A stretch of 64,000 bases of DNA from assembly GCF_002101295.1 (NCBI RefSeq), contig NZ_CP020778.1, positions 971,001 through 1,035,000 on the forward strand. Reading direction: 5' to 3'. The position numbers and the translations under genes were made by a program. The notes below the pieces were generated by a model. It saw only the letters and a program-made list of their open reading frames with translations. It did not search any database and was not told the DNA's origin. Source of the stretch: Candidatus Pelagibacter sp. RS40 (GTDB lineage: Bacteria > Pseudomonadota > Alphaproteobacteria > Pelagibacterales > Pelagibacteraceae). Below are positions 32,389-52,566 of this stretch, piece by piece (the stretch's first letter is position 1; every line of letters starts with the position of its first letter).

Positions 32389-32404
32389 ATATTAAGCTTT
32401 GTTG

Positions 32405-33344: not shown

Positions 33345-33590
33345 CTATTTTTTAGGTTTTGAAATTTTACCAGATATTGACTGGCCAGGTTTTACGTTAT
33401 GAGTATTATTTTTCTTTTTATTAAAATCGATTTTACCAGATAAAGTTTGTCCTACTTTTATAGTTGGATTATTTGATACTACTGGTTTTGGCTTAAACAA
33501 GTTGCCCTCAGCTTTACCGGTTTTTGCATCAATTTTTATATTAATATTCTTTTGAGAGCTTATAAATTTTTTAATGTCGTCTTTACTCAT
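33345..33590 (-). CDS. Small Lys-rich protein sharing a module with the TolC-like protein's tail
   Basis: The 81-aa, strongly basic protein has no signal peptide. It begins SKDDIKKFISSQKN, which resembles two segments in the tail of the upstream TolC-like protein (STEEINDLIKNQEKKN and SDEEIAKFIKKQEKKN). The C-terminal half contains two copies of a VGQ/PGQ-x-[LI]SGKI motif. Its ATG overlaps the TolC-like stop by one base (TAATG), so the two are co-translated. Function unknown; a cytosolic or periplasmic partner of the TolC-like extension is plausible. Confidence 0.65.
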   Translation of the reverse strand: MSKDDIKKFISSQKNINIKIDAKTGKAEGNLFKPKPVVSNNPTIKVGQTLSGKIDFNKKKNNTHNVKPGQSISGKISKPKK

Positions 33591-36082
33591 TAATTTAATT
33601 TACTTATTTTCAATTTTTTAGCTTTTTTCTTTGCTTCTTTCTTTTTAATTTTATCTAATTTCTTTCTTAGCTTTTTGTTCTTTTTTTCTTGTTTCTTTAT
33701 AAATTTTGCAATTTCTTCATCCGAATATAATTTATAATTACTTCCATTTTTCTCTTCAGCTTTTAAATAAACATTTAAATAATTTTCTGGATCTGTTGAT
33801 ACAATACTTTTTACCATTTCTTTTGGTGTCTCTAACACAGGTTCAGTTTTCTTTATTACCTTTTCTTTTTTTATTTTTTTCTTTTTATTCTTTTTCTTCT
33901 CTAGTTTAGCTCTTTCTTTTTCTTCTTTTTTCTTAATTTTCGCTAATTTTTTTCTTAATTTTTTATTTTTCTTTTCTTGGTTTTTAATAAGATCATTGAT
34001 CTCTTCAGTACTAAAGAAGGTAAATTGATTTCCATCTTTTATAGTTACTCTTTCATTTAAATCAAAAGTTTTTAATTCCTTAGCTTTTTTCTCAGCAAGT
34101 TTTTTTGCTTTAAGTTTTGCTTTTTTCTCTTTTAATTTCTGCGCTTTTAATTTCTTCTCTTTTTCTTTCTTACGTTTTTCAGCAAGTCTTTTCTCTTCTT
34201 TCTTACGTTTTTCGGCTAACTCTTTTTCTTCTTTAATCCTTTTTTCTTTTGCCAGCCTTTCTTTTCTTAGATCTGGATCAACTACTAATGTAAAAGTATC
34301 TTCAGTTGCTGTATTTATGTTTCTAGCACTGACGGTAAGGTCAATTTCTTCAATATTTCCCTTATTTTTTCTATCAATTAAGAAAGTTCTTTGAGATGGT
34401 AAAAAAGTTATCCATTCAGGAAGAGGGGCGTTATTACTTAATTTGGCACTGTATTGAACTCTGCCTTTTCCATCTAATTTGAATGTATTTTTTGCAAATT
34501 CAAAACTTGAAATATTTAAATCATCGTTTGTTACTACAGGCTTTTGTTTGTTAATTGGTTTTTTAACAATTGCTTTAAAATTCTTACCTGTATCTTTAAA
34601 ATTCTTTTTAATTATTTCTGCAAATTCTTTTGTTCCTATTTGTAAACTTTCTCTTGTTGTTACATCAACACCAACAGAGGTATAAACTTGTGCTACACTG
34701 AATTGAACTTTTGAAAACGCAATATCTCTTCTAAGTTCTGCAACCAACAAACTTGCTTCTTCTCTTATTAATTCTAATTCACCAAATCTTGCAATCTTTT
34801 GCGCATTTCTAACTTGCTCTGTAATTTTTCTTGAAACATCATAATAACGATCAGCTGTTTCATATTCCTCTAATGCCATTTGATATTCTATATTTGATAT
34901 ATGAACTTGTGATAATACTGCCATTGATAAAGCCAGTCTTTGCTCCTTAATAATTTCAGTATTCATTTCATTTACTTCTTTTAATCTTGGAGCTCTAAAT
35001 ACATTTAATAAATTTGCACCAATTGATGAACCATACTCAAAGTTAGTTTTATTCATTAAATAATCATTTGATGAACTTGTCCATGCTGCATTAAAATTTA
35101 ATCCAGGCAATAACGATCTCATACCTGCTTTTGTTTCTGCAATTGATATTCTTTCTTCGTAATGATTTTCAATTAATTCTGGTCTATTAACTAAAGCATG
35201 TTTTTCCATATGCTTTAATTTCATATTTAATTCGTTTAATGGTTGATCTGTTTGAACAAGTACAAATTTTTCGTTTGGAAGAAGTCCCATTAGGGCACCT
35301 AATTCTATTTTAGCGTTAATAAAGCTTTGTTTCTGGCTTTGAAGAGCTCTTTGAATATCTAATAATTCTTTTTGATATAAAAGAGCATCCATTGGTTTTT
35401 GTAACAAAAGCTCTTCTATTTTTTGACTATCGTTTAATGCATTATTTACTTTAATTAATAATGGATCATATTTTTTAATTAATTTTTCTGCCGATAATGC
35501 ATTCCAATAAGCTCTTATTACATCTTTTGTAATATTATTTGCTGCTTTTTTTTCTAATTCTTTTGATATTAAAAACTTATCTGAGCTTTGTCCTGCTCTT
35601 ATATATGAAAGACCAAAATCAAGTGCATTCCATGAAAAACCGACATCTTGTTCATTAACATCTCTATCTCTTGAGGTTGAATATGAGGATCCAATACTTC
35701 CCGCTAAGTCAGTACTTGGTACTGTTGCACTTGCTGTAGTTTTATATCTATCGCTTCCAGTATAACCTGCATTTGCTGCCATCGTTGGAAGCATTTCAAA
35801 CTCTACATCTTCTATTTTTCTATTAGCAAGTGATGTTTCTAAAAGTTTGACTTTTAAATCTTTGTTATTTTCAATTGCAAGAGCGATTGCTGTATATAAA
35901 TCTATTTTTAAATCTTTATTAAAAAGATCATTTTGCTCTTTAATCTCTTGTATTTTAGCCAAATCATCTTCTGCAGATTTTATAAAATCTTCAGATGTAA
36001 TAGGTTCAGGATTTCGCTTTGCACACGAAACAACCACCCCAAGAGATAAAACTAACAATATTTTTAATAAATATTTTAACAT
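33590..36082 (-). CDS. TolC-like outer-membrane lipoprotein with cadherin-like domain and Lys-rich coiled-coil tail
   Basis: The 830-aa product has a lipoprotein signal peptide with lipobox VVSC (Cys20). Residues about 55-495 form an outer-membrane efflux (TolC/OEP-type) domain, with two related halves of long helices and beta-strand segments (AYWNALSAEKLI and SNIEYQMALEEYETADRYYDV). Residues about 520-600 resemble a dystroglycan-type cadherin-like domain (APLPEWITFLPSQRTFLID), the same type found near the C-termini of the giant proteins. From about residue 604 a very Lys/Glu-rich coiled coil contains two copies of an S-[TD]-EEI-x-x-[LF]-I-K-x-QEKKN module. Ordinary TolC proteins are about 450-500 aa, so the extension of over 300 residues is exceptional. 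It is divergent from giant gene 1. Likely role: outer-membrane exit channel for the giant proteins. Confidence 0.8.
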   Translation of the reverse strand: MLKYLLKILLVLSLGVVVSCAKRNPEPITSEDFIKSAEDDLAKIQEIKEQNDLFNKDLKIDLYTAIALAIENNKDLKVKLLETSLANRKIEDVEFEMLPTMAANAGYTGSDRYKTTASATVPSTDLAGSIGSSYSTSRDRDVNEQDVGFSWNALDFGLSYIRAGQSSDKFLISKELEKKAANNITKDVIRAYWNALSAEKLIKKYDPLLIKVNNALNDSQKIEELLLQKPMDALLYQKELLDIQRALQSQKQSFINAKIELGALMGLLPNEKFVLVQTDQPLNELNMKLKHMEKHALVNRPELIENHYEERISIAETKAGMRSLLPGLNFNAAWTSSSNDYLMNKTNFEYGSSIGANLLNVFRAPRLKEVNEMNTEIIKEQRLALSMAVLSQVHISNIEYQMALEEYETADRYYDVSRKITEQVRNAQKIARFGELELIREEASLLVAELRRDIAFSKVQFSVAQVYTSVGVDVTTRESLQIGTKEFAEIIKKNFKDTGKNFKAIVKKPINKQKPVVTNDDLNISSFEFAKNTFKLDGKGRVQYSAKLSNNAPLPEWITFLPSQRTFLIDRKNKGNIEEIDLTVSARNINTATEDTFTLVVDPDLRKERLAKEKRIKEEKELAEKRKKEEKRLAEKRKKEKEKKLKAQKLKEKKAKLKAKKLAEKKAKELKTFDLNERVTIKDGNQFTFFSTEEINDLIKNQEKKNKKLRKKLAKIKKKEEKERAKLEKKKNKKKKIKKEKVIKKTEPVLETPKEMVKSIVSTDPENYLNVYLKAEEKNGSNYKLYSDEEIAKFIKKQEKKNKKLRKKLDKIKKKEAKKKAKKLKISKLN

Positions 36083-36256: not shown

Positions 36257-39200
36257 GTGAATAAATTTAAGAAAAAAAAAATTATAAAAAATAAGAAAGT
36301 ATTCATTGAGCCTTTAGAACAAAGGATCATGCTTGATGGTGCAGGATCGTCTACTTTTCTAGATCTAATAGATGAAAGATCACAAGCTGACAATTCAAAT
36401 AAAAGTATTCAAGAAGTTAAAAAATTTAAAGAGTTAAAAAGTGAAAATGGATCAAAAGAACTTCCATTTACTAATGTTCCAAGAGATCAATTAAAAAGAA
36501 AACAAATCGTATTCATTGATAAACAAGTTCCAGATTTTGAAAAATTAGCAAAGTCATTTAGAAAAAATGTTGAAATTCACTTTATTGAAACAAACGAAGA
36601 TGGATTTAAAAAAATTGAGCAAACTTTAGTAAACGGAAAAAAATATTCAGCCATACATATAATTGGGCATGGTAGTGCAGGGCAAATTTTATTTGGAAAT
36701 GCACTCCTAACAAATGAAAGTATTGAAAATTACAAATCAACTTTAGGTAGTATTGGTGAAAGTTTAACAAAAAAAGGCGATATCCTTTTTTATGGTTGCA
36801 ACATTGCAGCAAACGATAAAGGGGAAGCTTTATTAAAAAAAATATCCAATTTTACAAAAGCAGATATTGCAGCATCCAATGATTTAACGGGTAAAGTTGG
36901 GGATTGGGATTTAGAGAAAAAATATGGAATAGTTGAAACTAAAAATGTTCAAGTAGTAGATTATAAATCTTATCTCTTAATCTCTAAAAATACTGTTGGT
37001 GAAGATGGAATTGCAAGCGTAAGTGGAGGTTATGTTACAGCTTATACAGGTAGCCATACAATAAAGGATCTAAGATCAAACACCGAAGGTAACTCAAAAA
37101 CATATTCAGGTTGGTGGAATGTTACAAGAGAAAAAGCAGGAATAAGCTCAGGAAAAATTCAGGCTGGTGACGGTGATATTAGATTTGCGAGTGGCTCACC
37201 TCTTACAGCAAGCACCAGTACTCAATATGACAGTTACATTCTTTTTTTAAATGCAAAAAGAAATGATAAATCAGACAGAAATAATGTGGCTACCGTAACC
37301 TTTGATAATAATATTAAAGCAGTGATGTATGGACAAGAAACAGGAAAAAAAACAGTTGGAACAATGAATTTTGAGGTAAGTGGTTATACTTATGGTGGCT
37401 CAGAATCAAAGAGAGGTTTTGAAGATGGTGGTTCATCACAAACAACACAAGATGATTGGTTTTCGTTTTCAGGCAAAACTATTACTTGTGGTGCAAAAAA
37501 TAAAGATCCTGGTGACTATCTGCGAATTATAGTTGATGCTGCATCTCCTCCTGCTGTAAATAAAGATCCTGTTGCATCTAATAGCACTCAATCAGTAACT
37601 GAAAATGAATACGCAGCTCTTAATGGAGGTTATGGAGATGTTATAACAGGCAACGAAGATCCTGATGGTGATACAGTAACGATTACAAAAATTAAATATG
37701 ATAAATTTACAGACTCTAACAGTAATGACAAAGTAGATTCAGGTGAGATTGAAATTGGCAAAGAACAGGATTTAACCTCGGGTTGGAATTCTGTTAATAC
37801 AAAGTATGGAAATTTGTTTATTCATCAATCAACTGGTAAGTATGCATTTAATGCTGTAAGACAATCATCTCCTGATATCGAAAAGTACGATGATAATGAA
37901 AAATCTTTATCTTATACAGGTTGGGGTGTAAATAAGGCTCAATTTAACGAGGTAAATACAATTAATGCTGGAGAAAGTAAAACGGTATCATTCACCTATA
38001 CAATTGATGATCGTAATGGTGGTACCGATACTGGAACAATAACAATTACCATAAATGGAGCAAATGATACACCTATTGCAGTAAACGATTCCGCTTCAAC
38101 AATTGAAGGTGGAACAATTTCGACCTCAGATAATTTACTCAACAATGACATCGATAGAGACTCAAATGATAGTTTTGGGAATGGTTTTTATATTTCTGAA
38201 ATAAAAGCAGGGGAAGATGAGAATCATGCTTCATCTGGAAGCGAATTATCAGCTACGGTTACACAACAAACAGTGACAGGTAACTATGGAAATTTAACAG
38301 TTAATAGAGATGGAACATATACTTATACAGCTTTCACAGACTCCGGTCTAGCAGCAGGAGAAGAAGTAGAGGATCATTTCACCTATATACTTAAAGATGA
38401 TAGCAACGAAGCAAATATTGGAACGCTACAACAGGGCAGACCAATTGAAACTCCAGTGGATAAAAATAGTATTGGAAAATTAAGTATAGAAGTTGTTGGT
38501 GTTGCAGATGCTAATAATGCACCCGACTTAAAAGCTGATACAGGTTATGTTTATGAAGATTTTACTTTAACAGTTGCAGATGGTGCAAGCGCCAATGATG
38601 GTTTAGATTCATCTCCATTTACAGGGGATCAAGAGATTGCAGCAGACTCTGATTTTAATAGTAATCATGGAGATCATACGGGAGATCTATTAGGAAATGA
38701 TGTTGATGATGATGGAGATACTTTATCAATTAATGGAGTAAGACTTGCAAGTTATGTAGATACATTGGCTGATCCACCAAGTTTTACTACTGTATCTGGT
38801 TCAACAAGTATTACAGGAACTTATGGAGTTCTTACAATTAATCCTAATGGCTCTTATAGTTATGCTGCAACAAATACCAATACAGATGAATTGGATTTGA
38901 ATGATACGGTTGTTGATAAATTTGATTATAAAGCAACAGATGGAACTGATGAAGCATATACTAGACTAACAATTACTATAAAAGGTATCAATGATGATCC
39001 TGTAGGTGTTGTAAATACTGATTCAGTTACACTTGGCTCATCTCTAAATAGAACTGATGGATCTAGTTACGATATATTAGGTAACGATACCGATGTTGAT
39101 GGTGATGATGATGAAAATGATTTTACAATTACAAGTATCACAGCAACAACAGCTGGCGGTTCAGCTCAAACAACTTTTTCTAGTAATACAGAGACTGTTT

Positions 39201-42200
39201 CAGGACAATACGGAACATTAGTTTTAAACTCTAATGGAAGCTACACATATGATCCAACTGGTAATGCAAATACCATAGCGCTTGCAGATGGTGAAACTGC
39301 CGATGATGTATTCACTTATATATTTAATGATGGAACTTCAAAATTAACTGAGCATAGCAGTGGATCTTTAAAAACAAACCCAAGTGGAACATCTACTTTA
39401 ACAATTACAGTTACTGGCAGAACTCCAAGTGCAGCCGATGATACAGGAAGAATAAATGCAGGCTCAACATTAACTGTTACTGATGGATCATCTGGTGAAG
39501 ATGGAAGTGATACTGATAAAGATAACGAGAGTGGAGACCATACAGGAGATGTTTTGGAAAACGATACAGGATCTTCAACAGCTGTTACTGGTATTCAATT
39601 AGGATCTGAAAGTGCTCCAGGTGCATCTGGTACAATAGGCTCTGTTTTTCAAGGAAATTATGGTGATTTAACAATAAATGCGGATGGTTCTTATACTTAC
39701 AATGCTAATAATGCTGGAACATTGTTGGCTGGTCAAACTGCAACTGAAACATTTACTTATACAGTAACTGATGGCACTGGTAAAACTGATACCGCAACAA
39801 TTACTATTACAATTTTAGGAGTTGATGATGCTCCTGCAGCAGTTAATGACACTGGTTATATTCAAGAGGCATCTACTTTAACTGTTGAGGCAGATGAAGG
39901 TGTAGATGGTACCGATGATAACAATAATAATGAAAGTGGTGACACATCAGGCGGTGCTTTAGAAAACGATTCTGATGCAGATGGTGATAGCACAATGTCA
40001 ATAACATCATATGAGCACACTTCAGGAACTAATACTTCTGGAGGCGCTTTAGCTAGTAATAGTAATAGTGGTGAAGCAGGATCAAGTTCAGTTGTTGGAA
40101 TATATGGAACTTTAACTTTGGCAGCTGATGGATCTTATACTTACGCTGCAAACGAAGATATAAGCACACTCGATAGTGGTGAGACTGTTACAGATGTTTT
40201 TACTTACACTCTTACAGATAGTGATGGAGATACTGCAGACGATACTGCAACAATTACAATAACAATTGTTGGAATAAGCGCACCTTCTGCTGCAGATAAT
40301 ATTGCGACAGTAGAGGAAAATAGCACTTTAACAGTTGCAGATGGTGCAGGCGTTAATGCTGAAACAGCAGCAACACATGCTGGTGGTTCAGATTCTTTTG
40401 CAGTTCATGCACAAGAAAATGATGGAACTGGAATTAGTTTTAGTAGCGATGGTAAGAAGATGTATATTACAGGACATGCTCAAAACAAAATTTATCAATG
40501 GGATTTAAGTACTGCATTTGATCCCTCAACAAAATCAAATCTAGTATCCAAAAGCACTAATTGGAACGGTGTAGATAATTCAGGTGATGACGATTTTAGT
40601 AATGATCAGGGAGATTGGACAAGAGGTCATGTATGGAATGTTGATGGTACTAAACTTTTTGTACTTAATTGGGATGGAGGTGTCGCTGGTGATAGCACTG
40701 CTTCTTACCGTATATGTTCATATGATGCCTCATCTCCTTTTGAAGTTTCATCATTAACAATAGCAGCACCAACATCTTCAACAAGCTTTGATACAGGATA
40801 CACGGACGCACATTTAAATTTAAGTGTAAGTAATGATGGTAAAAAATTTCATATAATTGATAGAGGAGATAAAGTATTAAAACAGATAAAATTAACAACT
40901 GCATATGATTTATCAACTGCATCTTATGAAACTGGGTATTCTTTAGCTGCTGCAGTTAGTGGACCAAGAAGTTTTACATTTAGCGCTGATGGAAAAAGAT
41001 TTTTTGTAGGCTGCCAGTCTAATGATAAAATATATCAGTTTTCATTAGATAATGCTTTTGACGTAACACCAGGATCTGTAACTCTAGATGGAAATATAAA
41101 TTTATTAAATAGTGGTACGATGCCATTTGGAATAACATTTGGTGCCGGTGGTACTAAAATGTTTGTTCATGAAATAGATGGTAACGATACTGTTGAAGAG
41201 TATGCTTTAAGAACACCATACAATTTAATTGATTTAGATGGAGAGCATGACGGAGATGTTTTAGAGGATGACACAGATACAGATGGTGGTACTTTAACAG
41301 TTTCTTCAGTTAGAACAGGATCAACAGAGGGGTCTGGTACAGCAGGAACTTTAGGGCAAGCTCTTACAGGGACTTATGGAGATCTTACATTAAATGCTAA
41401 TGGATCGTACAATTATACAGCAAATACAGGCATTTCAGCTACAGAAGCATTGGATGCGGGTGATATTGTTTATGACTATTTCAATTACACCGTTTCTGAT
41501 GGAACTGGAACGGACACCGCTTTAATCACAATAAAAGTAATTGGAGTAAACGATGCTCCATCTGCAACAAATGATACTGGGTATATTCATGAAGGTGGAA
41601 CATTAACAGTTTCAAATGGTGGATCAGCTGTTTCTGGAACCTCAACAGGAAGTAATACAGGGGATGTGTTATTAAATGATACAGATGTTGATGCAAATGA
41701 TACATTAATTGTTGTTGGAACAGTTACACAAAACGGTGGAACGAATACAGCGGGCGCATCAGTTGCGAAGAATAATGAGACGGCAGATGTTGGTGCTAAA
41801 ATAGATGGACTTTACGGAGACTTAACTTTAAATGCAGATGGATCTTATAGCTATATAGCAAACGATGCTGCATCTCTCAATAACGGTGAAACTGTTACAG
41901 ATATATTTACATTTACTACAAGTGATACTCAAGGAGGAACAGATACATCTACTTTAACAATTACAATTATTGGTAAAGGAGTAGATCTTACAAATGACAC
42001 AGATGCAGTAAATGAAGATGCAAACATCACTGTAAGTGATGGTGATGATGAAGACTTATTAGTAGATGATTTTGGTGTATCTACAGTTACGAGTGTTGCA
42101 CATACAAGTGGAACAGATGGAAATGGAACTGCTCTTTCGAGCACTGGTAATTCGGCGTCTGCAGGCTCTGCTGTTATTGGTCGGTATGGTACTTTAACGG

Positions 42201-44941
42201 TTGCTGCAGATGGTTCATATGTTTATTTAACAGATTTAGACAATAATGAGGATGCTCTTGTTGTAGGAGCTACTGCAACGGATGTATTTACTTACACTGC
42301 AGGAGGTGAAACTGCAACTTTAACAATTACAATTACTGGACTTGGTCCATTAGCAGCGAATGACACAGCAGCATTTACTGAAGGAGGCTCTGCTGCAACT
42401 GGTACAGCTGGCGTTTCTGGAACAGGTGTTTTAGGCAATGATGATAATGGTGGATCGTCCTATGAGGCAGAGCATGCATCATTAAGAGTAACACAAGCAA
42501 AACCAGATGGAGGATCTTATACAACAGTTGCTTCAGGAGGATCTTCAGATATTACTGGAACTTATGGAACCCTAACACTTTATAGTACAGGTGAATATTC
42601 TTATACAGCCGATCAATCTGCAGCAGAAACGATCACAAAAGATGCAACAGTAACAGATACATTTGTTTACGAAATTAAAGATGATGATGATGTTAACGCT
42701 TCTACAGCTAACATAGTAATTACAATTACTGGTATAAACGATGATATTATAGCAGTAGATGATACTGATAGTGTTACAGAAGGTGCAACAGTTAAAAGAG
42801 GATACGACTCTACTTATTCATTAGATTATGATGATACAGATGTAGACACAGCGAATACTTACTTAACACATCAAATTACTGCAATAAGATTAGGAGATAC
42901 TGAGGGAGCTGGAACAGCTGGAACAATAGGAGATCCACTAGAAGGCACTTATGGAAAACTTACTGTTTTTGCAGACGGTTCATATACCTATCAAGCAAAT
43001 AATGACATTGAAGTATCAGGTTCAAGATTAATTAGTGGCCAAACGGTTACTGATACCTTTAATTACACAGTTTCAGATACAGACGGTGACACAGATATTG
43101 CAGTTTTAACAATTACAATTAATGGAACAAATGAGCCTCCGAAAGCAAGAGATGACTATGATCAAATTACTGTTGGTGGGCCTTCAATCTCAAAAAACTC
43201 AACAAATGGTACTACTTCGAATGATAATGATGTTGAGGGATCGAGTTTAACTGTAAATGGAGTTAAAACAGGAACAGAGGAGGGATCTGGAACTGAAGGG
43301 ACTGTTGGATCATCATTAACAGGAACTTATGGAACTTTAATATTAAATTCAGATGGAAGCTATACATATGAATTAGATCCAAACAGTGAAGATTTAAAAA
43401 AACTACCAGCTGGTGAATACATTTATGAAACGTTTACTTACACAATTACAGATGACACAGGTCAAACTGATACTGCAGAAATTAAAATTCGTATTAATGG
43501 AGTTAATGATGCTCCAGAAGCTGTAGATGATAAAGAAACATTAGACCTAGATACAAATACAGAATTAGAGCATTTTGACGATGAAAATAAATACTTAAAA
43601 TATAATGATATTGATCATGACCGTTTCGATAATATTACACTGAACTCTATAAGAACTGGAAAATCAAGTGAGACTGGATCAACAATTTCTTTTGGTACTG
43701 AATATACAACTAACTACGGCAGAATAACTTTTTATAATGATGGAGGTTACAACTTTATATCTAATTCTGGTTTAAGAGATACCTTAAAACCAGGAGAAAA
43801 ATTATATGAATATTTTACTTATACAATTAGTGATATAAGCGGTCTTACAGCAAGCGCACAGTTTACAATTGAAATATTTGGAACCACAAACTATCCAGGT
43901 GCAGTTTTAGATGATGGATTTAGATCATTAGTTCAAAGAGCATCCTTAAATGAATTAGATCCTTATCTTTTGCCAGATAGAGAACCTCTACCATTTACAA
44001 ATTTTTATGAAGGACAATTTAAAATATTAAGATTTAATGAAGCTTTAAAACTAATTGATCTTCGAGCTCAATTTATAGATAAAGATGGAAACTATACTAC
44101 ATTTTCTGAGGGTAACCCCGAGGATACTTTGGTTCTACAGTTTTCAGTATTTAATGATCCAGGTGTTAAACTTGTAAAATACAAAGGTGAGATGAAAGAT
44201 GGTAGTGAATTACCAAGTTGGATAAAAGTAAATCCAAAAACAGGTGTTGTTGTTGCTGAAATTCCATTTGATGTAGATTTATTAGAATTTAAAGTAATCG
44301 GAATTGATGAAAAGAATAATGAATATGAAATTGCAGTTCTAATTGATGCTAGTCAATTAAGACAAAATAGAGAACTTGCAAGAGAGTTTGCAGGTGAAAT
44401 TGAAGAAAGAATTTCAGTCAATCAAGATGGAAATGTAGAAATTCAATCTGATGAGGAACAAACAAATAATGAAACAGAAAATAAATCAATAAATGGCAAC
44501 GATGCAAAATTAAAATCTAAAAAATTAATTGAAAAAATTGTAAAAGGTGAAGTTTTAAAACCAAAACCTTATATTAGAGATAATAAATATATTATTGATT
44601 TACCTGATGAAATTAAATCAAATCTTGAAAAAGGAATTGCTGTTTTAAGAAATGGAGACAAAATTCCTAAATGGGTAAAAGTTGATACAGATAAGGGTGA
44701 ATTAATTTTAAATCCTCCAAAAAATTTAAAACATTTAAATCTTTCAATTATTTCAATTGATGCAGATGGAAATAAAATTAAAAACGATATCAAAGGAAAG
44801 ATTAATAAACGTTCTGCCGAAAGGTTTGCAAAGCAAATTGAAATTAAAGAGCAAACAAGATTTGTATCTTTAACTGAGCAAGTTGGTGTTGAGGCAAATA
44901 TTCAAGATGATTATGGTTCTGATATCATAAACCGTCTATAG
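36257..44941 (+). CDS. Giant repeat surface protein 1 (DUF4347, VCBS repeats, nested propeller)
   Basis: The 2,894-aa product uses a GTG start with no clear Shine-Dalgarno. The N-terminus is Lys-rich and has no Sec signal; residues 17-30 read IEPLEQRIMLDGAG, like the LEPR-type N-terminal motif of other giant exported proteins. A DUF4347-type domain follows (about residues 85-230) with H138 in IIGHGSAG and C181 in LFYGCN. Next come a beta-rich domain ending GDYLRIIVDA (to about 433), then about 13 VCBS/cadherin-like repeats (to about 2550), one carrying an inserted five-repeat propeller-like module. A C-terminal region has two dystroglycan-like cadherin segments and ends DDYGSDIINRL. No RTX nonapeptides were seen. 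Likely a secreted adhesin or surface-layer protein carried by the adjacent export genes; role inferred. Confidence 0.85.
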   Translation: MNKFKKKKIIKNKKVFIEPLEQRIMLDGAGSSTFLDLIDERSQADNSNKSIQEVKKFKELKSENGSKELPFTNVPRDQLKRKQIVFIDKQVPDFEKLAKSFRKNVEIHFIETNEDGFKKIEQTLVNGKKYSAIHIIGHGSAGQILFGNALLTNESIENYKSTLGSIGESLTKKGDILFYGCNIAANDKGEALLKKISNFTKADIAASNDLTGKVGDWDLEKKYGIVETKNVQVVDYKSYLLISKNTVGEDGIASVSGGYVTAYTGSHTIKDLRSNTEGNSKTYSGWWNVTREKAGISSGKIQAGDGDIRFASGSPLTASTSTQYDSYILFLNAKRNDKSDRNNVATVTFDNNIKAVMYGQETGKKTVGTMNFEVSGYTYGGSESKRGFEDGGSSQTTQDDWFSFSGKTITCGAKNKDPGDYLRIIVDAASPPAVNKDPVASNSTQSVTENEYAALNGGYGDVITGNEDPDGDTVTITKIKYDKFTDSNSNDKVDSGEIEIGKEQDLTSGWNSVNTKYGNLFIHQSTGKYAFNAVRQSSPDIEKYDDNEKSLSYTGWGVNKAQFNEVNTINAGESKTVSFTYTIDDRNGGTDTGTITITINGANDTPIAVNDSASTIEGGTISTSDNLLNNDIDRDSNDSFGNGFYISEIKAGEDENHASSGSELSATVTQQTVTGNYGNLTVNRDGTYTYTAFTDSGLAAGEEVEDHFTYILKDDSNEANIGTLQQGRPIETPVDKNSIGKLSIEVVGVADANNAPDLKADTGYVYEDFTLTVADGASANDGLDSSPFTGDQEIAADSDFNSNHGDHTGDLLGNDVDDDGDTLSINGVRLASYVDTLADPPSFTTVSGSTSITGTYGVLTINPNGSYSYAATNTNTDELDLNDTVVDKFDYKATDGTDEAYTRLTITIKGINDDPVGVVNTDSVTLGSSLNRTDGSSYDILGNDTDVDGDDDENDFTITSITATTAGGSAQTTFSSNTETVSGQYGTLVLNSNGSYTYDPTGNANTIALADGETADDVFTYIFNDGTSKLTEHSSGSLKTNPSGTSTLTITVTGRTPSAADDTGRINAGSTLTVTDGSSGEDGSDTDKDNESGDHTGDVLENDTGSSTAVTGIQLGSESAPGASGTIGSVFQGNYGDLTINADGSYTYNANNAGTLLAGQTATETFTYTVTDGTGKTDTATITITILGVDDAPAAVNDTGYIQEASTLTVEADEGVDGTDDNNNNESGDTSGGALENDSDADGDSTMSITSYEHTSGTNTSGGALASNSNSGEAGSSSVVGIYGTLTLAADGSYTYAANEDISTLDSGETVTDVFTYTLTDSDGDTADDTATITITIVGISAPSAADNIATVEENSTLTVADGAGVNAETAATHAGGSDSFAVHAQENDGTGISFSSDGKKMYITGHAQNKIYQWDLSTAFDPSTKSNLVSKSTNWNGVDNSGDDDFSNDQGDWTRGHVWNVDGTKLFVLNWDGGVAGDSTASYRICSYDASSPFEVSSLTIAAPTSSTSFDTGYTDAHLNLSVSNDGKKFHIIDRGDKVLKQIKLTTAYDLSTASYETGYSLAAAVSGPRSFTFSADGKRFFVGCQSNDKIYQFSLDNAFDVTPGSVTLDGNINLLNSGTMPFGITFGAGGTKMFVHEIDGNDTVEEYALRTPYNLIDLDGEHDGDVLEDDTDTDGGTLTVSSVRTGSTEGSGTAGTLGQALTGTYGDLTLNANGSYNYTANTGISATEALDAGDIVYDYFNYTVSDGTGTDTALITIKVIGVNDAPSATNDTGYIHEGGTLTVSNGGSAVSGTSTGSNTGDVLLNDTDVDANDTLIVVGTVTQNGGTNTAGASVAKNNETADVGAKIDGLYGDLTLNADGSYSYIANDAASLNNGETVTDIFTFTTSDTQGGTDTSTLTITIIGKGVDLTNDTDAVNEDANITVSDGDDEDLLVDDFGVSTVTSVAHTSGTDGNGTALSSTGNSASAGSAVIGRYGTLTVAADGSYVYLTDLDNNEDALVVGATATDVFTYTAGGETATLTITITGLGPLAANDTAAFTEGGSAATGTAGVSGTGVLGNDDNGGSSYEAEHASLRVTQAKPDGGSYTTVASGGSSDITGTYGTLTLYSTGEYSYTADQSAAETITKDATVTDTFVYEIKDDDDVNASTANIVITITGINDDIIAVDDTDSVTEGATVKRGYDSTYSLDYDDTDVDTANTYLTHQITAIRLGDTEGAGTAGTIGDPLEGTYGKLTVFADGSYTYQANNDIEVSGSRLISGQTVTDTFNYTVSDTDGDTDIAVLTITINGTNEPPKARDDYDQITVGGPSISKNSTNGTTSNDNDVEGSSLTVNGVKTGTEEGSGTEGTVGSSLTGTYGTLILNSDGSYTYELDPNSEDLKKLPAGEYIYETFTYTITDDTGQTDTAEIKIRINGVNDAPEAVDDKETLDLDTNTELEHFDDENKYLKYNDIDHDRFDNITLNSIRTGKSSETGSTISFGTEYTTNYGRITFYNDGGYNFISNSGLRDTLKPGEKLYEYFTYTISDISGLTASAQFTIEIFGTTNYPGAVLDDGFRSLVQRASLNELDPYLLPDREPLPFTNFYEGQFKILRFNEALKLIDLRAQFIDKDGNYTTFSEGNPEDTLVLQFSVFNDPGVKLVKYKGEMKDGSELPSWIKVNPKTGVVVAEIPFDVDLLEFKVIGIDEKNNEYEIAVLIDASQLRQNRELAREFAGEIEERISVNQDGNVEIQSDEEQTNNETENKSINGNDAKLKSKKLIEKIVKGEVLKPKPYIRDNKYIIDLPDEIKSNLEKGIAVLRNGDKIPKWVKVDTDKGELILNPPKNLKHLNLSIISIDADGNKIKNDIKGKINKRSAERFAKQIEIKEQTRFVSLTEQVGVEANIQDDYGSDIINRL
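37570..43890 (+). repeat. VCBS-type repeat array in giant protein 1 (about 13 units)
   Basis: Units of about 100-170 residues recur. Each has TLTV-x-DG, a G-x-H-x-GDVL-x-NDxD segment, GTYGxLTxNxDGSYxY, an FTYTVxDxxGxTDT strand and the ending ITITIxGxNDAP. Such domains usually bind calcium and form long extended stalks. Units are diverged at protein level rather than recently duplicated. Confidence 0.85.
40380..41235 (+). repeat. Five-repeat propeller-like module nested inside a VCBS unit (giant protein 1)
   Basis: Five repeats of F-x-x-DG-KKMYI-type strands followed by IYQWDLSTAFD-type strands interrupt a VCBS unit between its TLTVADGAG strand and its DGEHDGDVLEDD strand. The same type of module occurs twice in giant protein 2 at the equivalent position. 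Confidence 0.75.
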
Positions 44942-45062: not shown

Positions 45063-48000
45063 ATGGACAAAAAAAGTAAAAATATAAGAAGTCAAAAGAT
45101 TTTTATTGAGCCTTTAGAGCAAAGAATAATGCTTGATGGAGCAGGTGCTTCTACATTTTTAGATTTAATTGATGAGAGAAATCAACAAGAAATAAAAAAA
45201 AATTCCAAAAATAAAGATATATATAAAGAGGGAACCCAATCTAACACTGAAATCCCTTTTACAACTGTTGCTAGAGAGGCAAGAAACGACAGAAAAAATA
45301 TTGTTTTTATTGATAGCCAGGTAAAAGATTACAGAGAAATAACTAAATCCTTTAGAGAAAACACAGAAGTATATTTAATTAGTTCTAATGAAGATGGATT
45401 TAAGAGAATTAATCAAATTTTACAGGATAGAGAAAATATTAATGCCCTTCATTTAATTGGTCATGGTTCTGCAGGACAAATTTTATTTGGAAATGCATTT
45501 TTAAATAATGAAACAATAGATAATTACAAATCAACCCTTTCATCAATTGGTCAATCATTAACTGATAAAGGAGATATTCTCTTTTATGGATGTAATGTTG
45601 CATCAACAGATCAAGGTCAATTATTAATTAAAAAAATTTCAGAAATTACAAAAGCCGATATTGCAGCATCAGATGATATTACAGGTAAAGGCGGAGATTG
45701 GGAATTAGAAAAACAGTTTGGTTTAATTAGTGAGGAAGAACTTAAAGTTAAAAATTATAACCATGCCCTTGGATCATTATCTACAACTGGAGTTCTTTCT
45801 GGCTCAGGAGTTACTCATATTGATAGCAATGTTACAATGATGAATTCTGGCAATGTTGGACTTGGTGCTTCAGGAGCTTATGCAACAGTTGGTTCTGATT
45901 TTGGTTTGGCCGTAGAAGAATTAAATGTTTCTGTTTCTAGTGGAGACTTAATTTCGAATGTTGACGTTGATTCAACATATATTTGGAATGACGATAACAA
46001 TACTGGAAATGCTGAATTGCAAAATGGAGCTAATCAAAATGCCTCAAGTAATATTACAGTAAATTCGTATCTAATGTTTCTTGTAGATAACCTAAATAAA
46101 AGAACAAGTACTTCAGCTGGAGAAGTTGTTTTTGACGGTGAAATAGTTGGAATATTTTTTGATCAAGCAAAAACTCGAGCAGAAAATGTTGATGGTAACA
46201 CATATCATAGCAGTAGTTTAATTTATGCAATGAGTGGTAGCGGGGGTGGTAGTAATTCTGCAGATAGCGACGGTGGTAGAATGCCAGAGGGTAAAAAACC
46301 GAGCTCTGGTATGACTAACTTCTTTAATTCTACTCAGTCCCATGGTTCAGGTGGTGTTGCGGATAGTAGCAATGGTTCTGATTGGGTTTCTGTTTCAAAT
46401 CATGGAAGTGGAACAAATAATCTTTTACAATTTGGAGCGCAAAATGCGAATTCTTCCGCTGGAGATTATATAAGAATTCTTGTTATACCAAACGCAACAA
46501 ACACTGCACCTGCTGCAGCAGATAACATTGGAACCGTAAAAGAAGATGCAACGTTAACTGTTTCAAACGGAGCTACTTCAAATAGTATTACAGGTGCTTC
46601 TTTTGTTGATAGTTTTGATCTTTCTTCTCAAGAGTCTAACCCTCAAGGGGTAGCTTTTAATGAAGATGGTACAAAAATGTTTATTGTTGGAAGAGATGGA
46701 GATGAGGTTAATGAATATACTTTATCTACTGGGTATGATGTTTCCACTGCCTCTTATGATAGCAACTTTAGTGTTGCTTCCCAAGACACTATTCCGCAAG
46801 ACATAGTTTTTAACGCTGACGGTACAAAAATGTTTATTTTGGGAGAGGGAAATGGCGCAGTTTATGCATACAATCTCTCTACAGGCTTTGATGTATCCAC
46901 CGCATCATTTATTAACAACTTTAGTGTTGCCTCTCAAGAAAATTCCCCTCAAGGATTAGCATTTAATAATGATGGCACGAAAATGTTTATTACAGGAGGT
47001 GGTGGAAGAGATGTTAATGAATATACTTTGGCTAGCGCGTTTAATACAGCAACGGCATCTTTTGTCGATAGTTTTGATATTAGTTCTCAAGATACTTTAC
47101 CCAATGGTTTAGTATTTAACAGCGATGGAACTAAAATGTTTGTTACTGGCAATCAAGGTAATGATATTAACGAATATACGCTCTCTACTGGTTTCGATGT
47201 ATCCACTGCTTCCTTTGTTGGAAACATTAGCGTCTCTTCGCAAGATACTACTCCGGGGGGTATAAAATTTAATAACGATGGTACTAAATTATTTATGGTG
47301 GGAGTTGCTGGTGCAGATATTAATGAATACACTCTTACTACTCCTTTCAGTTTAGTAAATATATCAGGTGAACATGACGGTGATGTTTTATTAGATGATA
47401 CAGATGCAGATAGTGATACTTTAACAGTCACTCAAATAGCCGTAACTGGAGAGTCTAATTCATCTGTTTCAAGCAGTAGTTCATATAACTCAAGTGGAAC
47501 ATCAAAAACTGGTACTTATGGTACTTTAAGAATAGGTGCTGATGGATCATATGATTATGTAGCAGATCAAGCTGCTGCTGATGTATTAGATCCTGGTGCT
47601 GTTGTAACGGATAGTTTTACTTACACAGTCTCAGATGGAAATGGTGGAACTGATACAGCAACTTTAATAATCACTGTCGTAGGTGTGAATGATGATCCAG
47701 TAGGTGTTGCTGACACAGACTCAGTTGCAACAAGTAATACAGTTACAGATGCAACAAATAGTGCTGGAACAGTTATATCAGATGATACTGATGCTGATGC
47801 AAGTTCTTCTTTAACAGTAACAGCTATTCAGCATAGCGGAGCGGGTAGCGCAACTTCTGTTTCTGCAGGCACAACTAGAGCAGATGGTGCATCAAGTAGT
47901 GGTACTTATGGTACCTTAACAATTGGTGCAGACGGCTCTTATTCTTATGTTGCAGGATCAAGCGCTGGAACAGATGAATTTACTTATACAGTTTCTGATG

Positions 48001-51000
48001 GAACAGCAACAACAATTACAACTTTAACAATTACAGTTGGAGCCAGTAATAACGCTCCTTCAGCAGTTGCAGATACAGATAGTGTAAATGAAGACGCAAC
48101 AGTTACCCAAAGTTCTGGTTCAGGTTTATTAAGTGCAGATGATACCGATGGTGATGGTGATAGTTTAACAGTAACACAAATTAAAAAGGATGGTGGTACC
48201 AACTCAGCTGTATCTGGTGGAAGTTCTTATAATTCAAGCGGAACCTCTGTTACAGGAACTTATGGAACATTAACTGTTGGAGCTGATGGAACATATACAT
48301 ATGTTGCAGATCAAGCAGCTGCTGATGCTTTAGATGCAAGTGATATTGTTACAGACGTATTTACTTATACTATTTCAGACGGTAATGGTGGAACTGATAC
48401 TGCAAACTTAACCGTTACAGTTACTGGAGTTAACGATGCGCCAGTTGCTCAAAATGATACAGGAACTGTAAATGAAGATGCCACACTAAATGTTTCTAAC
48501 GATGCTACAAGCGTTACCGGAGTTTCTCAAGATACTGGTTCACCTTACTCACTTAGCGCAGGTACAGCACGTTCCGTAGCATTTAATCATGATGGTACTA
48601 AAATGTTTGTTGTTCATGCTCCCGGCACAGCAACAATCTCTGAACATGCTTTAACAACTGCTTTTGATATAAATACTGCTTCTCAAAGCACTACATATGA
48701 TATTTCTTCTCACATAAGTGAACCACGTGGTATCAGATTTAATAGTGATGGTACTAAACTTTATATAATCAGTAGTGCAGGTGGTAATAAAAAGATTCAT
48801 GAATATTCTTTATCTACAGCTTATGATGTATCTTCGTTACCAACTCCTTCTTCAACAGTAATTAGCAGCCAAGACGGTGGTCCTAGAGGTTTTACTTTTA
48901 ATACTGATGGAACTAAAATGTTTTTACTTGGAGACACCAACCACCATGTTTATGAATATTCTCTATCAACAGCTTTTGATACCACAACAATATCATACAC
49001 AAGTAGAAGTTTAGATTTTAGTTCAAGAGAAGTTACACCAAGAGGTATTTCATTTAATCCAACAGGTTCAAAATTATTTATTACAGGTCAAAGTAGTGAT
49101 GAAATTTTAGAATACGATCTTAGTACTGGTTTTAACTTATCTACTGCAACATTTAATGGTGCATTTGATGTGGGTAGCTTTGCTAATAAACCTAATGATA
49201 TTGTATTTAATAATGATGGAAGTAAAGCATTTTTAGCTCGAGCAAATTCAAATGCAGTCTTATCTTTTTCACTTTCAAGTCCATACAGTTTTGTTGATAT
49301 AACAGGTGAACACACTGGAGATGTAATAGATACAAGTTCAAGTTCTAATTCAGATTCTGATGCAGATGCAAGCTCATCTTTAACAATTTCAGCAATAAGA
49401 GCAGGCTCAAGTGAAGGAAATGGAAACCCAGGTTCAGTTGGATCTGCCTTAGATGGAACCTATGGTCAATTAACAATCAATGCTAACGGTTCTTATTCAT
49501 ATGTTGCAAATAAAGATGCAGCCGACGCACTTGACCCAGGTGATATAGTTACAGACAGTTTTAACTATACAGTCTCTGATGGAACAGCTACAGATATAGG
49601 CGTTATTACTATAACGGTAGTAGGTGTAAATGATGCTCCAACAGCATCAAACAATACTATTACAACTAATGAAGATACAAACCATGTATTTTCAACAAGT
49701 GAATTCAATTTTAGTGATACTGATGATAGCGGAAGTTTAAATAAAATTAAAATTACATCTTTAGAAAATAATGGTGCGTTACAATATTATAATGGATCTT
49801 CATGGGTTGATGTGACTTTAAACCAAGAAATTACAGCTCTCGATATTTCAAATGGATACTTAAGATTTAAGCCCGATTCTAATGAAAATGGAAGTTCATA
49901 TACTTCATTTGGATTTCAAGTAAATGATGGAACTGCTTATAGCTCATCTAAGACTATGACTGTCAATGTAACTGCAGTAAATGATACGCCAACAGCAACT
50001 GATGATACTGCAAGTGTAACAGACGGATCTAGCGTTACAGTATCAAATGCATCAAGCGGTGTAATTGATGATAATGATACAGATCCTGACAGCTCAGATA
50101 CATTAGTAATAACAAATATTTCTCACACAAATGGAAATAGTAGCAATGTTACATCCGCAACAACATATTCTAATGGAACATCAATAGCTGGAACATATGG
50201 AACGTTAACAATTGGAGCAGATGGAACATATACCTACACTCCAAATGGCTCTTTGGATACTGGTGAGTCCGGTAATGATGTGTTTACCTACACAGTTTCA
50301 GATGGATCAGCCACAGATACAGCAACTATTACAATTTCGGTTACAGGTGCAAACGATGCCCCAGCTGCATCAAACGATAGTAACACAATCGATATATCTA
50401 CAAACTCAACTTTAACAGTTACAGATGGTTCCATTAAGGACGTATTAACCAATGATACCGATGCTGATACCAACGATACTATTAGTGTAACAGAAATTAG
50501 AACAGGTGCCTTAGAGGGAGCAGGAACTTCAGGCGTAGTTGGATCTTCACTTACTGGAACATATGGAACATTAATAATAAACTCAAATGGAAGTTATACT
50601 TACATTGTTAATACTGGACTAGATGATACTTTAAATAAAGGTCAAATTGTATTTGAATATTTCAATTACACTGTATCAGATGGAACTACAACTGACACAG
50701 GCTCTATAGTTATTAAACTTCAAAATGGTGGACAGGTCGTTAAAGAAATTAGAGAAAAAAAAGCTGAAAGATTAATTAAGAGGGAAAGTAAAAGAAATGA
50801 AAAATCAAATAAATCAAATTTTAATTTACCAAAAATTGAAAGTAATTTTGAATTAAATTTAAATCAAATTGATCTTCCAAAACAAAATAAAAAAGCAGAT
50901 TTTTCACAAGGTCTTAAATTAACTGATCTTGTTGCAGAAACTAACTCAATTGAAGTTAAAGAAAAATTAAAAGACGTACCAGATGTTTTTGCAGATAAAG

Positions 51001-51833
51001 TAAAAGTTAAAGTTAAAAATGATAGTTTAAATCTTAAATTTAAAATTTTTAATGAATCAGGTTTTGATATTATTAAATACGAAGGAGTAATGAAAGATGG
51101 ATCACCTTTACCTGATTGGATCAAGGTAGATCCAAAGACAGGAGCTACCAAAACCAATATTCCTGATGGCGTGGAAAATGTAGAAATTATAATTATTGCA
51201 ACAGATAGTCAAAATGAGAGAAGAGAAATAAGTGTTAAAATTGATCCAGAACAAATTCTAAATGATAAGCAAATAATAAAACGAGCAAAAAAACAAAATG
51301 CAAGTATAAGTGTTGATGAAAGTGGCAATGTAAACTTGATTAAAAATAATCAAGATGGATCAGTAAATCAAAATTCTACAAGTATTTTAAATTTTAATAA
51401 TAAATCAGATATTTTAGATATCCTTCAATCAAAAAGATCTGATACTCTTTATACTTTAAAACCAAAAATTATTGATACAAATTTGGTTATAAATTTGCCA
51501 AGTGAACTATCACAAAAATTTGAAAGATCTAAACTTGTATTAAAAGATGGTTCTGAAATACCTGAGTGGTTAAGTTACGATCCTAACTCAGGAAAAATAA
51601 TTGCAGAACCGCCAGAAGATATTTCCAAATTAGACTTAAAACTTATTATCGAAAGAGATGGTGAAATAATTGTTAAAGATTTATCTATTGAATTTGGTGA
51701 TGATGATACTGCGCGAATTGACGAGTTAAATAACGAAAAAATCGACAATAAATTTGTAAGTTTAAAAGACCAATTAGATAAACAGTTTACTAGTTGGGAT
51801 GATTATGGTTCAAACGTTATTAATAGATTATAA
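45063..51833 (+). CDS. Giant repeat surface protein 2 (DUF4347, VCBS repeats, two nested propellers)
   Basis: The 2,256-aa paralogue of giant protein 1 has the same order of parts. Residues 15-28 read IEPLEQRIMLDGAG with no Sec signal. The DUF4347-type domain (about residues 80-225) has H134 in LIGHGSAG and C177 in LFYGCN. A beta-rich domain ending GDYIRILVIP follows, then about seven VCBS/cadherin-like repeats, two of which carry five-repeat propeller-like insertions. A Lys-rich linker precedes two dystroglycan-like cadherin segments (DGSPLPDWIKVDPKTG and DGSEIPEWLSYDPNSG) and the end DDYGSNVINRL. The HlyD-like gene begins 16 nt downstream, so the giant gene and the export genes probably share a transcript. 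Probably a secreted surface protein; target unknown. Confidence 0.85.
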   Translation: MDKKSKNIRSQKIFIEPLEQRIMLDGAGASTFLDLIDERNQQEIKKNSKNKDIYKEGTQSNTEIPFTTVAREARNDRKNIVFIDSQVKDYREITKSFRENTEVYLISSNEDGFKRINQILQDRENINALHLIGHGSAGQILFGNAFLNNETIDNYKSTLSSIGQSLTDKGDILFYGCNVASTDQGQLLIKKISEITKADIAASDDITGKGGDWELEKQFGLISEEELKVKNYNHALGSLSTTGVLSGSGVTHIDSNVTMMNSGNVGLGASGAYATVGSDFGLAVEELNVSVSSGDLISNVDVDSTYIWNDDNNTGNAELQNGANQNASSNITVNSYLMFLVDNLNKRTSTSAGEVVFDGEIVGIFFDQAKTRAENVDGNTYHSSSLIYAMSGSGGGSNSADSDGGRMPEGKKPSSGMTNFFNSTQSHGSGGVADSSNGSDWVSVSNHGSGTNNLLQFGAQNANSSAGDYIRILVIPNATNTAPAAADNIGTVKEDATLTVSNGATSNSITGASFVDSFDLSSQESNPQGVAFNEDGTKMFIVGRDGDEVNEYTLSTGYDVSTASYDSNFSVASQDTIPQDIVFNADGTKMFILGEGNGAVYAYNLSTGFDVSTASFINNFSVASQENSPQGLAFNNDGTKMFITGGGGRDVNEYTLASAFNTATASFVDSFDISSQDTLPNGLVFNSDGTKMFVTGNQGNDINEYTLSTGFDVSTASFVGNISVSSQDTTPGGIKFNNDGTKLFMVGVAGADINEYTLTTPFSLVNISGEHDGDVLLDDTDADSDTLTVTQIAVTGESNSSVSSSSSYNSSGTSKTGTYGTLRIGADGSYDYVADQAAADVLDPGAVVTDSFTYTVSDGNGGTDTATLIITVVGVNDDPVGVADTDSVATSNTVTDATNSAGTVISDDTDADASSSLTVTAIQHSGAGSATSVSAGTTRADGASSSGTYGTLTIGADGSYSYVAGSSAGTDEFTYTVSDGTATTITTLTITVGASNNAPSAVADTDSVNEDATVTQSSGSGLLSADDTDGDGDSLTVTQIKKDGGTNSAVSGGSSYNSSGTSVTGTYGTLTVGADGTYTYVADQAAADALDASDIVTDVFTYTISDGNGGTDTANLTVTVTGVNDAPVAQNDTGTVNEDATLNVSNDATSVTGVSQDTGSPYSLSAGTARSVAFNHDGTKMFVVHAPGTATISEHALTTAFDINTASQSTTYDISSHISEPRGIRFNSDGTKLYIISSAGGNKKIHEYSLSTAYDVSSLPTPSSTVISSQDGGPRGFTFNTDGTKMFLLGDTNHHVYEYSLSTAFDTTTISYTSRSLDFSSREVTPRGISFNPTGSKLFITGQSSDEILEYDLSTGFNLSTATFNGAFDVGSFANKPNDIVFNNDGSKAFLARANSNAVLSFSLSSPYSFVDITGEHTGDVIDTSSSSNSDSDADASSSLTISAIRAGSSEGNGNPGSVGSALDGTYGQLTINANGSYSYVANKDAADALDPGDIVTDSFNYTVSDGTATDIGVITITVVGVNDAPTASNNTITTNEDTNHVFSTSEFNFSDTDDSGSLNKIKITSLENNGALQYYNGSSWVDVTLNQEITALDISNGYLRFKPDSNENGSSYTSFGFQVNDGTAYSSSKTMTVNVTAVNDTPTATDDTASVTDGSSVTVSNASSGVIDDNDTDPDSSDTLVITNISHTNGNSSNVTSATTYSNGTSIAGTYGTLTIGADGTYTYTPNGSLDTGESGNDVFTYTVSDGSATDTATITISVTGANDAPAASNDSNTIDISTNSTLTVTDGSIKDVLTNDTDADTNDTISVTEIRTGALEGAGTSGVVGSSLTGTYGTLIINSNGSYTYIVNTGLDDTLNKGQIVFEYFNYTVSDGTTTDTGSIVIKLQNGGQVVKEIREKKAERLIKRESKRNEKSNKSNFNLPKIESNFELNLNQIDLPKQNKKADFSQGLKLTDLVAETNSIEVKEKLKDVPDVFADKVKVKVKNDSLNLKFKIFNESGFDIIKYEGVMKDGSPLPDWIKVDPKTGATKTNIPDGVENVEIIIIATDSQNERREISVKIDPEQILNDKQIIKRAKKQNASISVDESGNVNLIKNNQDGSVNQNSTSILNFNNKSDILDILQSKRSDTLYTLKPKIIDTNLVINLPSELSQKFERSKLVLKDGSEIPEWLSYDPNSGKIIAEPPEDISKLDLKLIIERDGEIIVKDLSIEFGDDDTARIDELNNEKIDNKFVSLKDQLDKQFTSWDDYGSNVINRL
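46600..47350 (+). repeat. Five-repeat propeller-like module A in giant protein 2
   Basis: Five repeats of about 48-50 residues share the pattern FNxDGTKMFI-x4-7-EYTLSTGFDVSTASF. They are inserted between a VCBS TLTVSNGA strand and SGEHDGDVLLDDTDAD. The repeats are close to each other in sequence, suggesting recent amplification. Confidence 0.8.
48520..49300 (+). repeat. Five-repeat propeller-like module B in giant protein 2
   Basis: Five more repeats of the same type (FNHDGTKMFVV, FNSDGTKLYII, FNTDGTKMFLL, FNPTGSKLFIT, FNNDGSKAFLA) are inserted between LNVSNDAT and TGEHTGDVI. They are more diverged from each other than module A. Confidence 0.8.
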
Positions 51834-51849
51834 ATAACACAATAAAATC

Positions 51850-52566
51850 ATGAAAAAATTTCTTTTTACAATCTTAATTTCTTATTTATTCTTAAATTTT
51901 ACTCATGCAGAAGAGATTAGAGAGGCCAGAGCTTTAGTAACTGCAACCGAAAAAGTATCAATATCAAGTGAATTAGCAGCGAGAGTTGAAAATATTAATT
52001 TTCTGTTAGGAGATCCTTTTAAAAAAGGTGACGTTTTAATTAGTTTTGATTGCAAAATCTATAAAGCTCAAAAAGAAGTAATCCAGGCAAATTATGATAG
52101 TGCAAATATTCAATTAAAAAATGATAAAGAATTATTGGAGATGAGATCAATTGGAAAACTCCAATATCAACTATCAGAATCTGCACTTAAAAAAGCAAAA
52201 GCTGAATTAAATATTGCAAAACTAAATGTAGATAGATGCGAAATTGTAGCTCCATACAACGGAAAAGTTATGGATGTTTATACAAGTATTTTTTCTACCA
52301 TAGAGCAAAGACAGCCCTTAATGGATATTGTTGGAGATGGTTTGTTAGAGGCTGAAATAGTTGTTCCTAGTAATTGGTTGAGATGGTTAAAAAAGGGTCA
52401 CGAGGTAAAAATTTTAATTGATGAAACAGGTGAAACTTTAGATGCAAAAGTAATTAGTCTTGGAGCAACAGTTGATGCAGTTAGTCAAACAATAGAATTG
52501 AAAGCTCAATTTAATGAAAAATATGAGTCTTTAATTCCAGGAATGAGTGGGATTGTTAAGTTTTGA
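51850..52566 (+). CDS. Short periplasmic HlyD/RND-type adaptor protein
   Basis: The 238-aa product has a Sec signal peptide (cleavage near THA-EE). The lipoyl-like half-motifs flank a coiled-coil hairpin (VSISSELAARVENINFLLGDPFKKGDVLISFD and CEIVAPYNGKVMDVYTSI), followed by a beta-barrel domain. It is shorter than normal membrane-fusion proteins (350-450 aa) and has no membrane helix. It likely bridges the inner-membrane proteins encoded next and the TolC-like channel. It overlaps the next gene by 4 nt. Confidence 0.82.
   Translation: MKKFLFTILISYLFLNFTHAEEIREARALVTATEKVSISSELAARVENINFLLGDPFKKGDVLISFDCKIYKAQKEVIQANYDSANIQLKNDKELLEMRSIGKLQYQLSESALKKAKAELNIAKLNVDRCEIVAPYNGKVMDVYTSIFSTIEQRQPLMDIVGDGLLEAEIVVPSNWLRWLKKGHEVKILIDETGETLDAKVISLGATVDAVSQTIELKAQFNEKYESLIPGMSGIVKF

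Follow-up and report, generated by a model that had tools for sequence, protein, structure and literature searches.

Organization of the locus

The window, the 64,000-nucleotide stretch of DNA analyzed here, carries an intact open reading frame (ORF) for an 830-aa TolC-like lipoprotein at positions 33590-36082 of the reverse strand. A short, likewise intact ORF encoding an 81-aa protein shares a single base with its stop codon (TAATG), and a gene for a wHTH regulator at 32399-33343 is convergent with this TolC operon. Two genes for giant proteins and three HlyD-type genes lie on the forward strand. The features are listed below with the evidence for each; L023 is a near-identical relative of the window locus.

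33345..33590, reverse strand: small basic protein of 81 aa, core [IV]xGN[IL]F ... VKxGQxIxGKI (homologues, HMM)
33593..33748, reverse strand: EEI module 2, residues 779-830 of the TolC-like protein (internal repeat; identical in L023)
33848..34045, reverse strand: EEI module 1 and the helix after it, residues 680-745 (internal repeat; dN/dS 0.16 versus L023)
34043..34279, reverse strand: Lys/Glu-rich helix, residues 602-680 (AF2 helix 603-667)
34280..34546, reverse strand: CADG/He_PIG-like domain, residues 513-601 (He_PIG 0.045; AF2 beta domain)
34670..35911, reverse strand: TolC/OEP channel, residues 58-471 (Pfam OEP; Foldseek)
36023..36082, reverse strand: signal peptide and lipobox, residues 1-20, VVSC at 17-20 (sequence motif only)
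36257..44941, forward strand: giant 1, with LEPR-XLL-like N-end, DUF4347 and VCBS/cadherin repeats (Pfam, NCBIfam)
44108..44374, forward strand: CADG 1 of giant 1 (CADG profiles)
44600..44782, forward strand: CADG 2 of giant 1 (CADG profiles)
45063..51833, forward strand: giant 2, plan as in giant 1 (DUF4347 match in own-genome search; sequence)
51009..51272, forward strand: CADG 1 of giant 2 (CADG profiles)
51510..51659, forward strand: CADG 2 of giant 2 (CADG profiles)
51850..52566, forward strand: HlyD-family adaptor (HlyD_3 2.6e-14; conserved in the cassette)
52563..53894, forward strand: HlyD-family adaptor with GAF-like N-terminal region (HlyD_3 1.1e-12; conserved in the cassette)
53891..55993, forward strand: M50 site-2-protease-like protein with HlyD domain (Peptidase_M50 1.1e-10, HlyD_D23 1.9e-7; conserved in the cassette)

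A TolC-like channel with a long C-terminal tail

Pfam PF02321 matched the TolC-like protein in two stretches (E=7.6e-23), corresponding to two OEP repeats. These repeats are held in common with the outer-membrane factors TolC, OprM, and CusC, and the lipid anchor is like that of OprM; C20 is invariant among 23 aligned orthologues. The best Foldseek matches of the AF2 model were TolC, ST50, CusC, and OprM. E-values of 6.5e-7 to 3e-4 were obtained to 43 chains, those listed being of the TolC fold, with a query model of modest confidence whose barrel part is low-confidence. The score against TIGR01844, the model for TolC of type I secretion, was 21.5 bits and thus below the cut-off of 225 bits, and the protein also fell far under the curated cut-off of TIGR01845. 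The nearest named record, 97% identical, comes from an uncultured Pelagibacteraceae single-cell genome, which places the window in SAR11.

Unlike TolC, OprM, and CusC, the window protein adds about 360 C-terminal residues with a CADG domain and charged helices. The last channel helix stops at residue 470 in the AF2 model, and the channel ends near residue 471 within the intact ORF. The long extension claimed by the sequence-only reading is real. It is neither a frame artefact nor missing from all close orthologues: the protein is present in 31 Pelagibacterales genomes, purifying selection acts in the tested pair, and the CADG domain and a charged linker are present in all complete orthologues from the Pelagibacterales.

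The He_PIG match of the window CADG domain lies below the Pfam cut-off (E=0.045; 14.6 versus 24 bits), and the same family was over cut-off in most orthologues tested (E 4e-5 to 4e-14). The AF2 model places a beta domain at residues 524-600 (pLDDT about 80-87) and helices at residues 603-667, 692-743, and 788-829. Past the CADG domain, the tail has a net charge of about +48 to +50. The two proposed EEI-x-x-[LF]-I-K-x-QEKKN modules were confirmed as a true internal duplication, near-identical from SxEEI through QEKKNKKLRKKL, and are confined to the window genome and L023. The tail gave no SPOR match with Pfam, its ending matched no wall-binding family, and a search of the whole genome (1.38 Mb, single contig) found no SPOR domain at E<=0.001.

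Comparison of the window protein with L023, a single genome pair, gave dN/dS values of 0.03 for the channel and 0.07-0.22 for the diverged parts of the tail. The tail is therefore under purifying selection between these two genomes. Some stretches are nearly free of synonymous change, which suggests recombination.

Tail endings within the Pelagibacterales

The TolC-like protein was found in 18 of 61 close genomes, its own included, with 0/36 carriers in the first same-genus set and 17/24 in the sister family. A wider draw of 399 same-genus genomes added 12 carriers. Within one genus, L047 and L051 carry the cassette elsewhere in the genome than do L052, L053, L055, and L057, and most members of that genus lack it. 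Scattered sites and frequent absence suggest gain and loss, or mobility, of the cassette.

All complete Pelagibacterales tails keep the CADG domain and the charged linker; the terminal module alone differs, to the point of being unalignable between lineages. Most same-genus tails finish in a helical stretch. The G050 tail ends with a SPOR domain above the Pfam cut-off, and the solved chains closest to this domain, weakly matched, are the SPOR domains of RlpA and DedD. Tails of the sister family end with a domain of about 100 aa that starts with YIKIGSY and is predicted to fold as b-a-b-b-a-b. A direct Pfam SPOR call on this domain gave no match, and Foldseek returned ferredoxin-like matches only, with weak E-values. 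A SPOR profile made of twelve sequences from tails of the TolC family itself matched it at an hhalign probability of 69.5% (E=4.2e-5; four control profiles, 0.18-0.78). Because this family-specific profile matches, we regard the sister-family ending as a divergent SPOR domain.

The charge of the tail is about neutral in most same-genus orthologues, and the linkers are acidic in the SPOR-bearing sister family. Genome-wide absence of SPOR as the cause of its replacement was unsupported; a weak SPOR protein, about 255-290 aa long, occurs in other SAR11 genomes. At the junction of channel and tail, the SAR11 relative L024 (8754-8880) has a short stretch of about 23 residues duplicated in tandem (GQIYTSVGLDVTEDNVK).

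Tails elsewhere in the Pseudomonadota

A search profile consisting of the channel and the CADG domain detected family members in 31 of 385 alphaproteobacterial genomes and, phylum-wide, in 81 of 399. The alphaproteobacterial orthologues L067, L068, and L086 end with SPOR (6e-9 to 1e-5). A CADG domain was recognized by Pfam in L070, L072, L085, and L087 and by inspection in L076. Twenty-six phylum-level tails measuring 100 aa or more, many of them picked for length, were compared: SPOR was over cut-off in nine, OmpA in one, and SH3_3 in one; Cds6_C was present in many, and four had none of these domains. One apparent TolC, in a 2765-aa ORF of L158, was rejected as a giant matched by the CADG part of the profile.

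Among the 78 distinct family members from the class and phylum levels, 27 have a tail shorter than 60 aa; the tail is therefore an add-on, dispensable for the channel. Canonical TolCs recognized by TIGR01844 are mostly 430-580 aa long. The earlier statement that a TolC protein usually has nothing beyond its channel applies to the majority, though TolCs with tails recur in several families of the Pseudomonadota. A few canonical TolC families carry a C-terminal SPOR or OmpA domain or an N-terminal AMIN domain, and the theme is therefore wider than this cassette. N-terminal AMIN was seen on the TolC-family ORFs of L169, L172, L173, and L174, and in L176 both OmpA and SPOR follow the channel.

The putative export cassette

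In SAR11 and across the Pseudomonadota, the TolC gene usually adjoins genes for HlyD, GAF-HlyD, and M50-HlyD proteins and for a LEPR/DUF4347 giant. The name GAF for the N-terminal region at 52563..53894 was assigned by eye, Pfam giving no match. No ABC exporter is found among the cassette genes, and neither type I ABC exporter model, TIGR03375 or TIGR01842, scored over cut-off anywhere in the window's own genome. PADLOC gave no defence-system match. The literature searched contained nothing relevant on tailed TolC, DUF4347, LEPR-XLL, or M50-HlyD cassettes.

LapA/LapE and other giant adhesins of type I secretion combine a giant repeat protein with its own TolC-like channel and HlyD adaptors. 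The same three elements occur here, with the differences that the adaptors include a GAF-like HlyD protein and an M50-HlyD fusion, that no type I ABC exporter is over cut-off, and that the giants have a LEPR-XLL-like N-end and DUF4347. We infer that the giants are exported through this cassette. A broader proposal, which we offer tentatively, is that TolC, HlyD, GAF-HlyD, and M50-HlyD form a secretion machine for LEPR/DUF4347 giants that works without a type I ABC exporter and whose channel is anchored to the wall by exchangeable domains.

Both giants begin with FIEPLEQRIMLDGAG (36257-36350 and 45063-45140), a LEPR-XLL-like motif that is strongly conserved in SAR11 cassettes and is possibly an export or sorting signal; the N-end of giant 1 scored under the NCBIfam cut-off (13.5 versus 17 bits). 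Their C-ends have FVSL..Q...DDYGS.IINRL in common. In L148 (11378-16225), a single ORF seems to join a LEPR/DUF4347/CADG giant to an HlyD adaptor; this fusion could be genuine or artefactual.

The 81-aa protein and the neighboring regulator

The 81-aa protein belongs to a conserved family. Each of the ten same-genus loci whose sequence extends over this flank has a homologue, with E-values of 4e-17 or better against an HMM built from those same members. In three of the ten, the gene is on the opposite strand and adjoins the gene at the wHTH position. The HMM found no relative at the sister-family loci (best match E=0.08).

The 81-aa protein had been read as starting with a third version of the EEI module, and this did not survive comparison. 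Its start (SKDDIKKFISSQKN) scores 34 against the EEI modules, equal to the score of an unrelated ORF (10099-10788). This version is not conserved in the ten homologues outside L023; the top scores of these ten mostly do not rise above those of shuffled sequences (p=0.03-0.97). By inspection, no signal peptide was seen on the 81-aa protein, and a meeting with the tail in the periplasm is therefore unlikely. Our guess is that it acts as a cytoplasmic accessory or a regulator of the cassette. The wHTH regulator at 32399-33343 may likewise control the cassette; a wHTH-like ORF, recognized by eye, is also found at that place in sister-family loci, e.g., at 5316-6380 of L026.

The tail as a candidate cell wall tether

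According to the sequence-only reading, the tail may serve in the periplasm as a dock for cargo, adaptors, or the cell wall. The wall option is strongly supported by comparison, as SPOR, OmpA, or SH3_3 domains occupy the same tail position in relatives; cargo docking is left with the kinship of the CADG domains. The C-terminus of TolC is located in the equatorial region. In Escherichia coli, the equatorial domain of TolC has been proposed to touch peptidoglycan, and the cell wall sits between TolC and AcrA (PMC13082787). A tail that exits at the level of the wall, together with endings of peptidoglycan-binding families in relatives, makes a wall tether the simplest reading. We assign a probability of roughly 55% to the tail being a periplasmic tether that holds the giant-export channel to the cell wall. 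For the window protein itself, whose own ending is no recognized binder, this reading is drawn from position and orthology.

The tether would operate as follows. The channel, a TolC/OEP lipoprotein, would belong to a conserved cassette for the export of giant cadherin-repeat proteins of the LEPR/DUF4347 type. The tail would leave the channel beside the equatorial domain, which is where peptidoglycan is located in TolC pumps, and the CADG domain and the long charged helix would lead to an exchangeable end module that anchors the channel to the wall. Such an anchor could steady the channel during the passage of proteins of 2,000-3,000 residues. In the window genome, the two Lys-rich EEI modules would have replaced the anchoring end domain and would bind the anionic wall by charge, which is plausible. 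Several observations count against the tether: the ending of the window protein matches no wall-binding family, its Lys-rich charge is not conserved among orthologues, tails under 60 aa are found in 27 of the 78 family members, and many long tails end with Cds6_C NTF2-like domains.

Two known systems offer comparisons. SPOR-domain proteins (PF05036), such as FtsN, DedD, and RlpA, share with the orthologues the SPOR or divergent SPOR domain at the tail ends; the window protein differs in having no SPOR, and its tail would anchor an export channel, not a division protein. In E. coli TolC-YbjP, too, the TolC channel is supplemented by a periplasmic element (PMC13082787, PMC13016604). YbjP, however, is a separate lipoprotein that may provide a lipid anchor and is not reported to bind peptidoglycan avidly, whereas the window tail is fused to its channel.

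The main rival is that the tail docks cargo, with the TolC CADG domain pairing with or holding the C-end CADG domains of the giants and thereby gating or retaining them, as LapA-type retention modules do. The earlier claim that the channel shares a domain type with the giants (LPEWITFLPS against LPSWIKVNPK and LPDWIKVDPK) was borne out by profile searches and hhalign, but its list missed the second CADG domains (IPKWVKVDTD and IPEWLSYDPN). The TolC CADG profile picks up the C-terminal domains of the giants at hhalign probabilities of 95% (CADG 1) and 97% (CADG 2), and the domains are judged to be related by sequence; the two CADG domains of the giants are nearer to each other than to that of TolC. 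The arrangement is constant across Pelagibacterales loci, with one CADG domain in the channel protein and each complete giant having two at its C-end. Nevertheless, CADG is a common stacking domain, CADG-tailed TolCs occur without an adjoining giant in the alphaproteobacterial L091, L092, and L098, and in most cassettes elsewhere the TolC has no CADG domain. We consider cargo docking unlikely.

It is less probable again that the ending is fast-drifting, weakly constrained Lys-rich filler, with the CADG domain alone being functional. Such drift would fit the lack of alignment between terminal modules of different lineages and the restriction of the EEI modules to two genomes, but not the purifying selection that acts along the tail in the single pair tested or the recurrence of wall-binding-family domains at the same place in relatives. 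Least probable is a reach arm that touches the three HlyD-type adaptors, one of them M50-fused, and sets the periplasmic distance, for although the long helices stand beside a three-adaptor cassette in a genome with no recognized type I ABC exporter over curated cut-off, the same adaptors occur with a nearly tailless TolC in L153, L155, L159, and L160, and tail length and charge vary freely.

TolC is usually pictured as a bare pipe, passive toward peptidoglycan. With modules of wall-binding families recurring on the pipe itself, this family would open the question of how envelope-spanning exporters are fixed to the wall to direct tests by domain deletion. The findings also point to an apparently undescribed cassette for giant-protein export in SAR11 and much of the Pseudomonadota.
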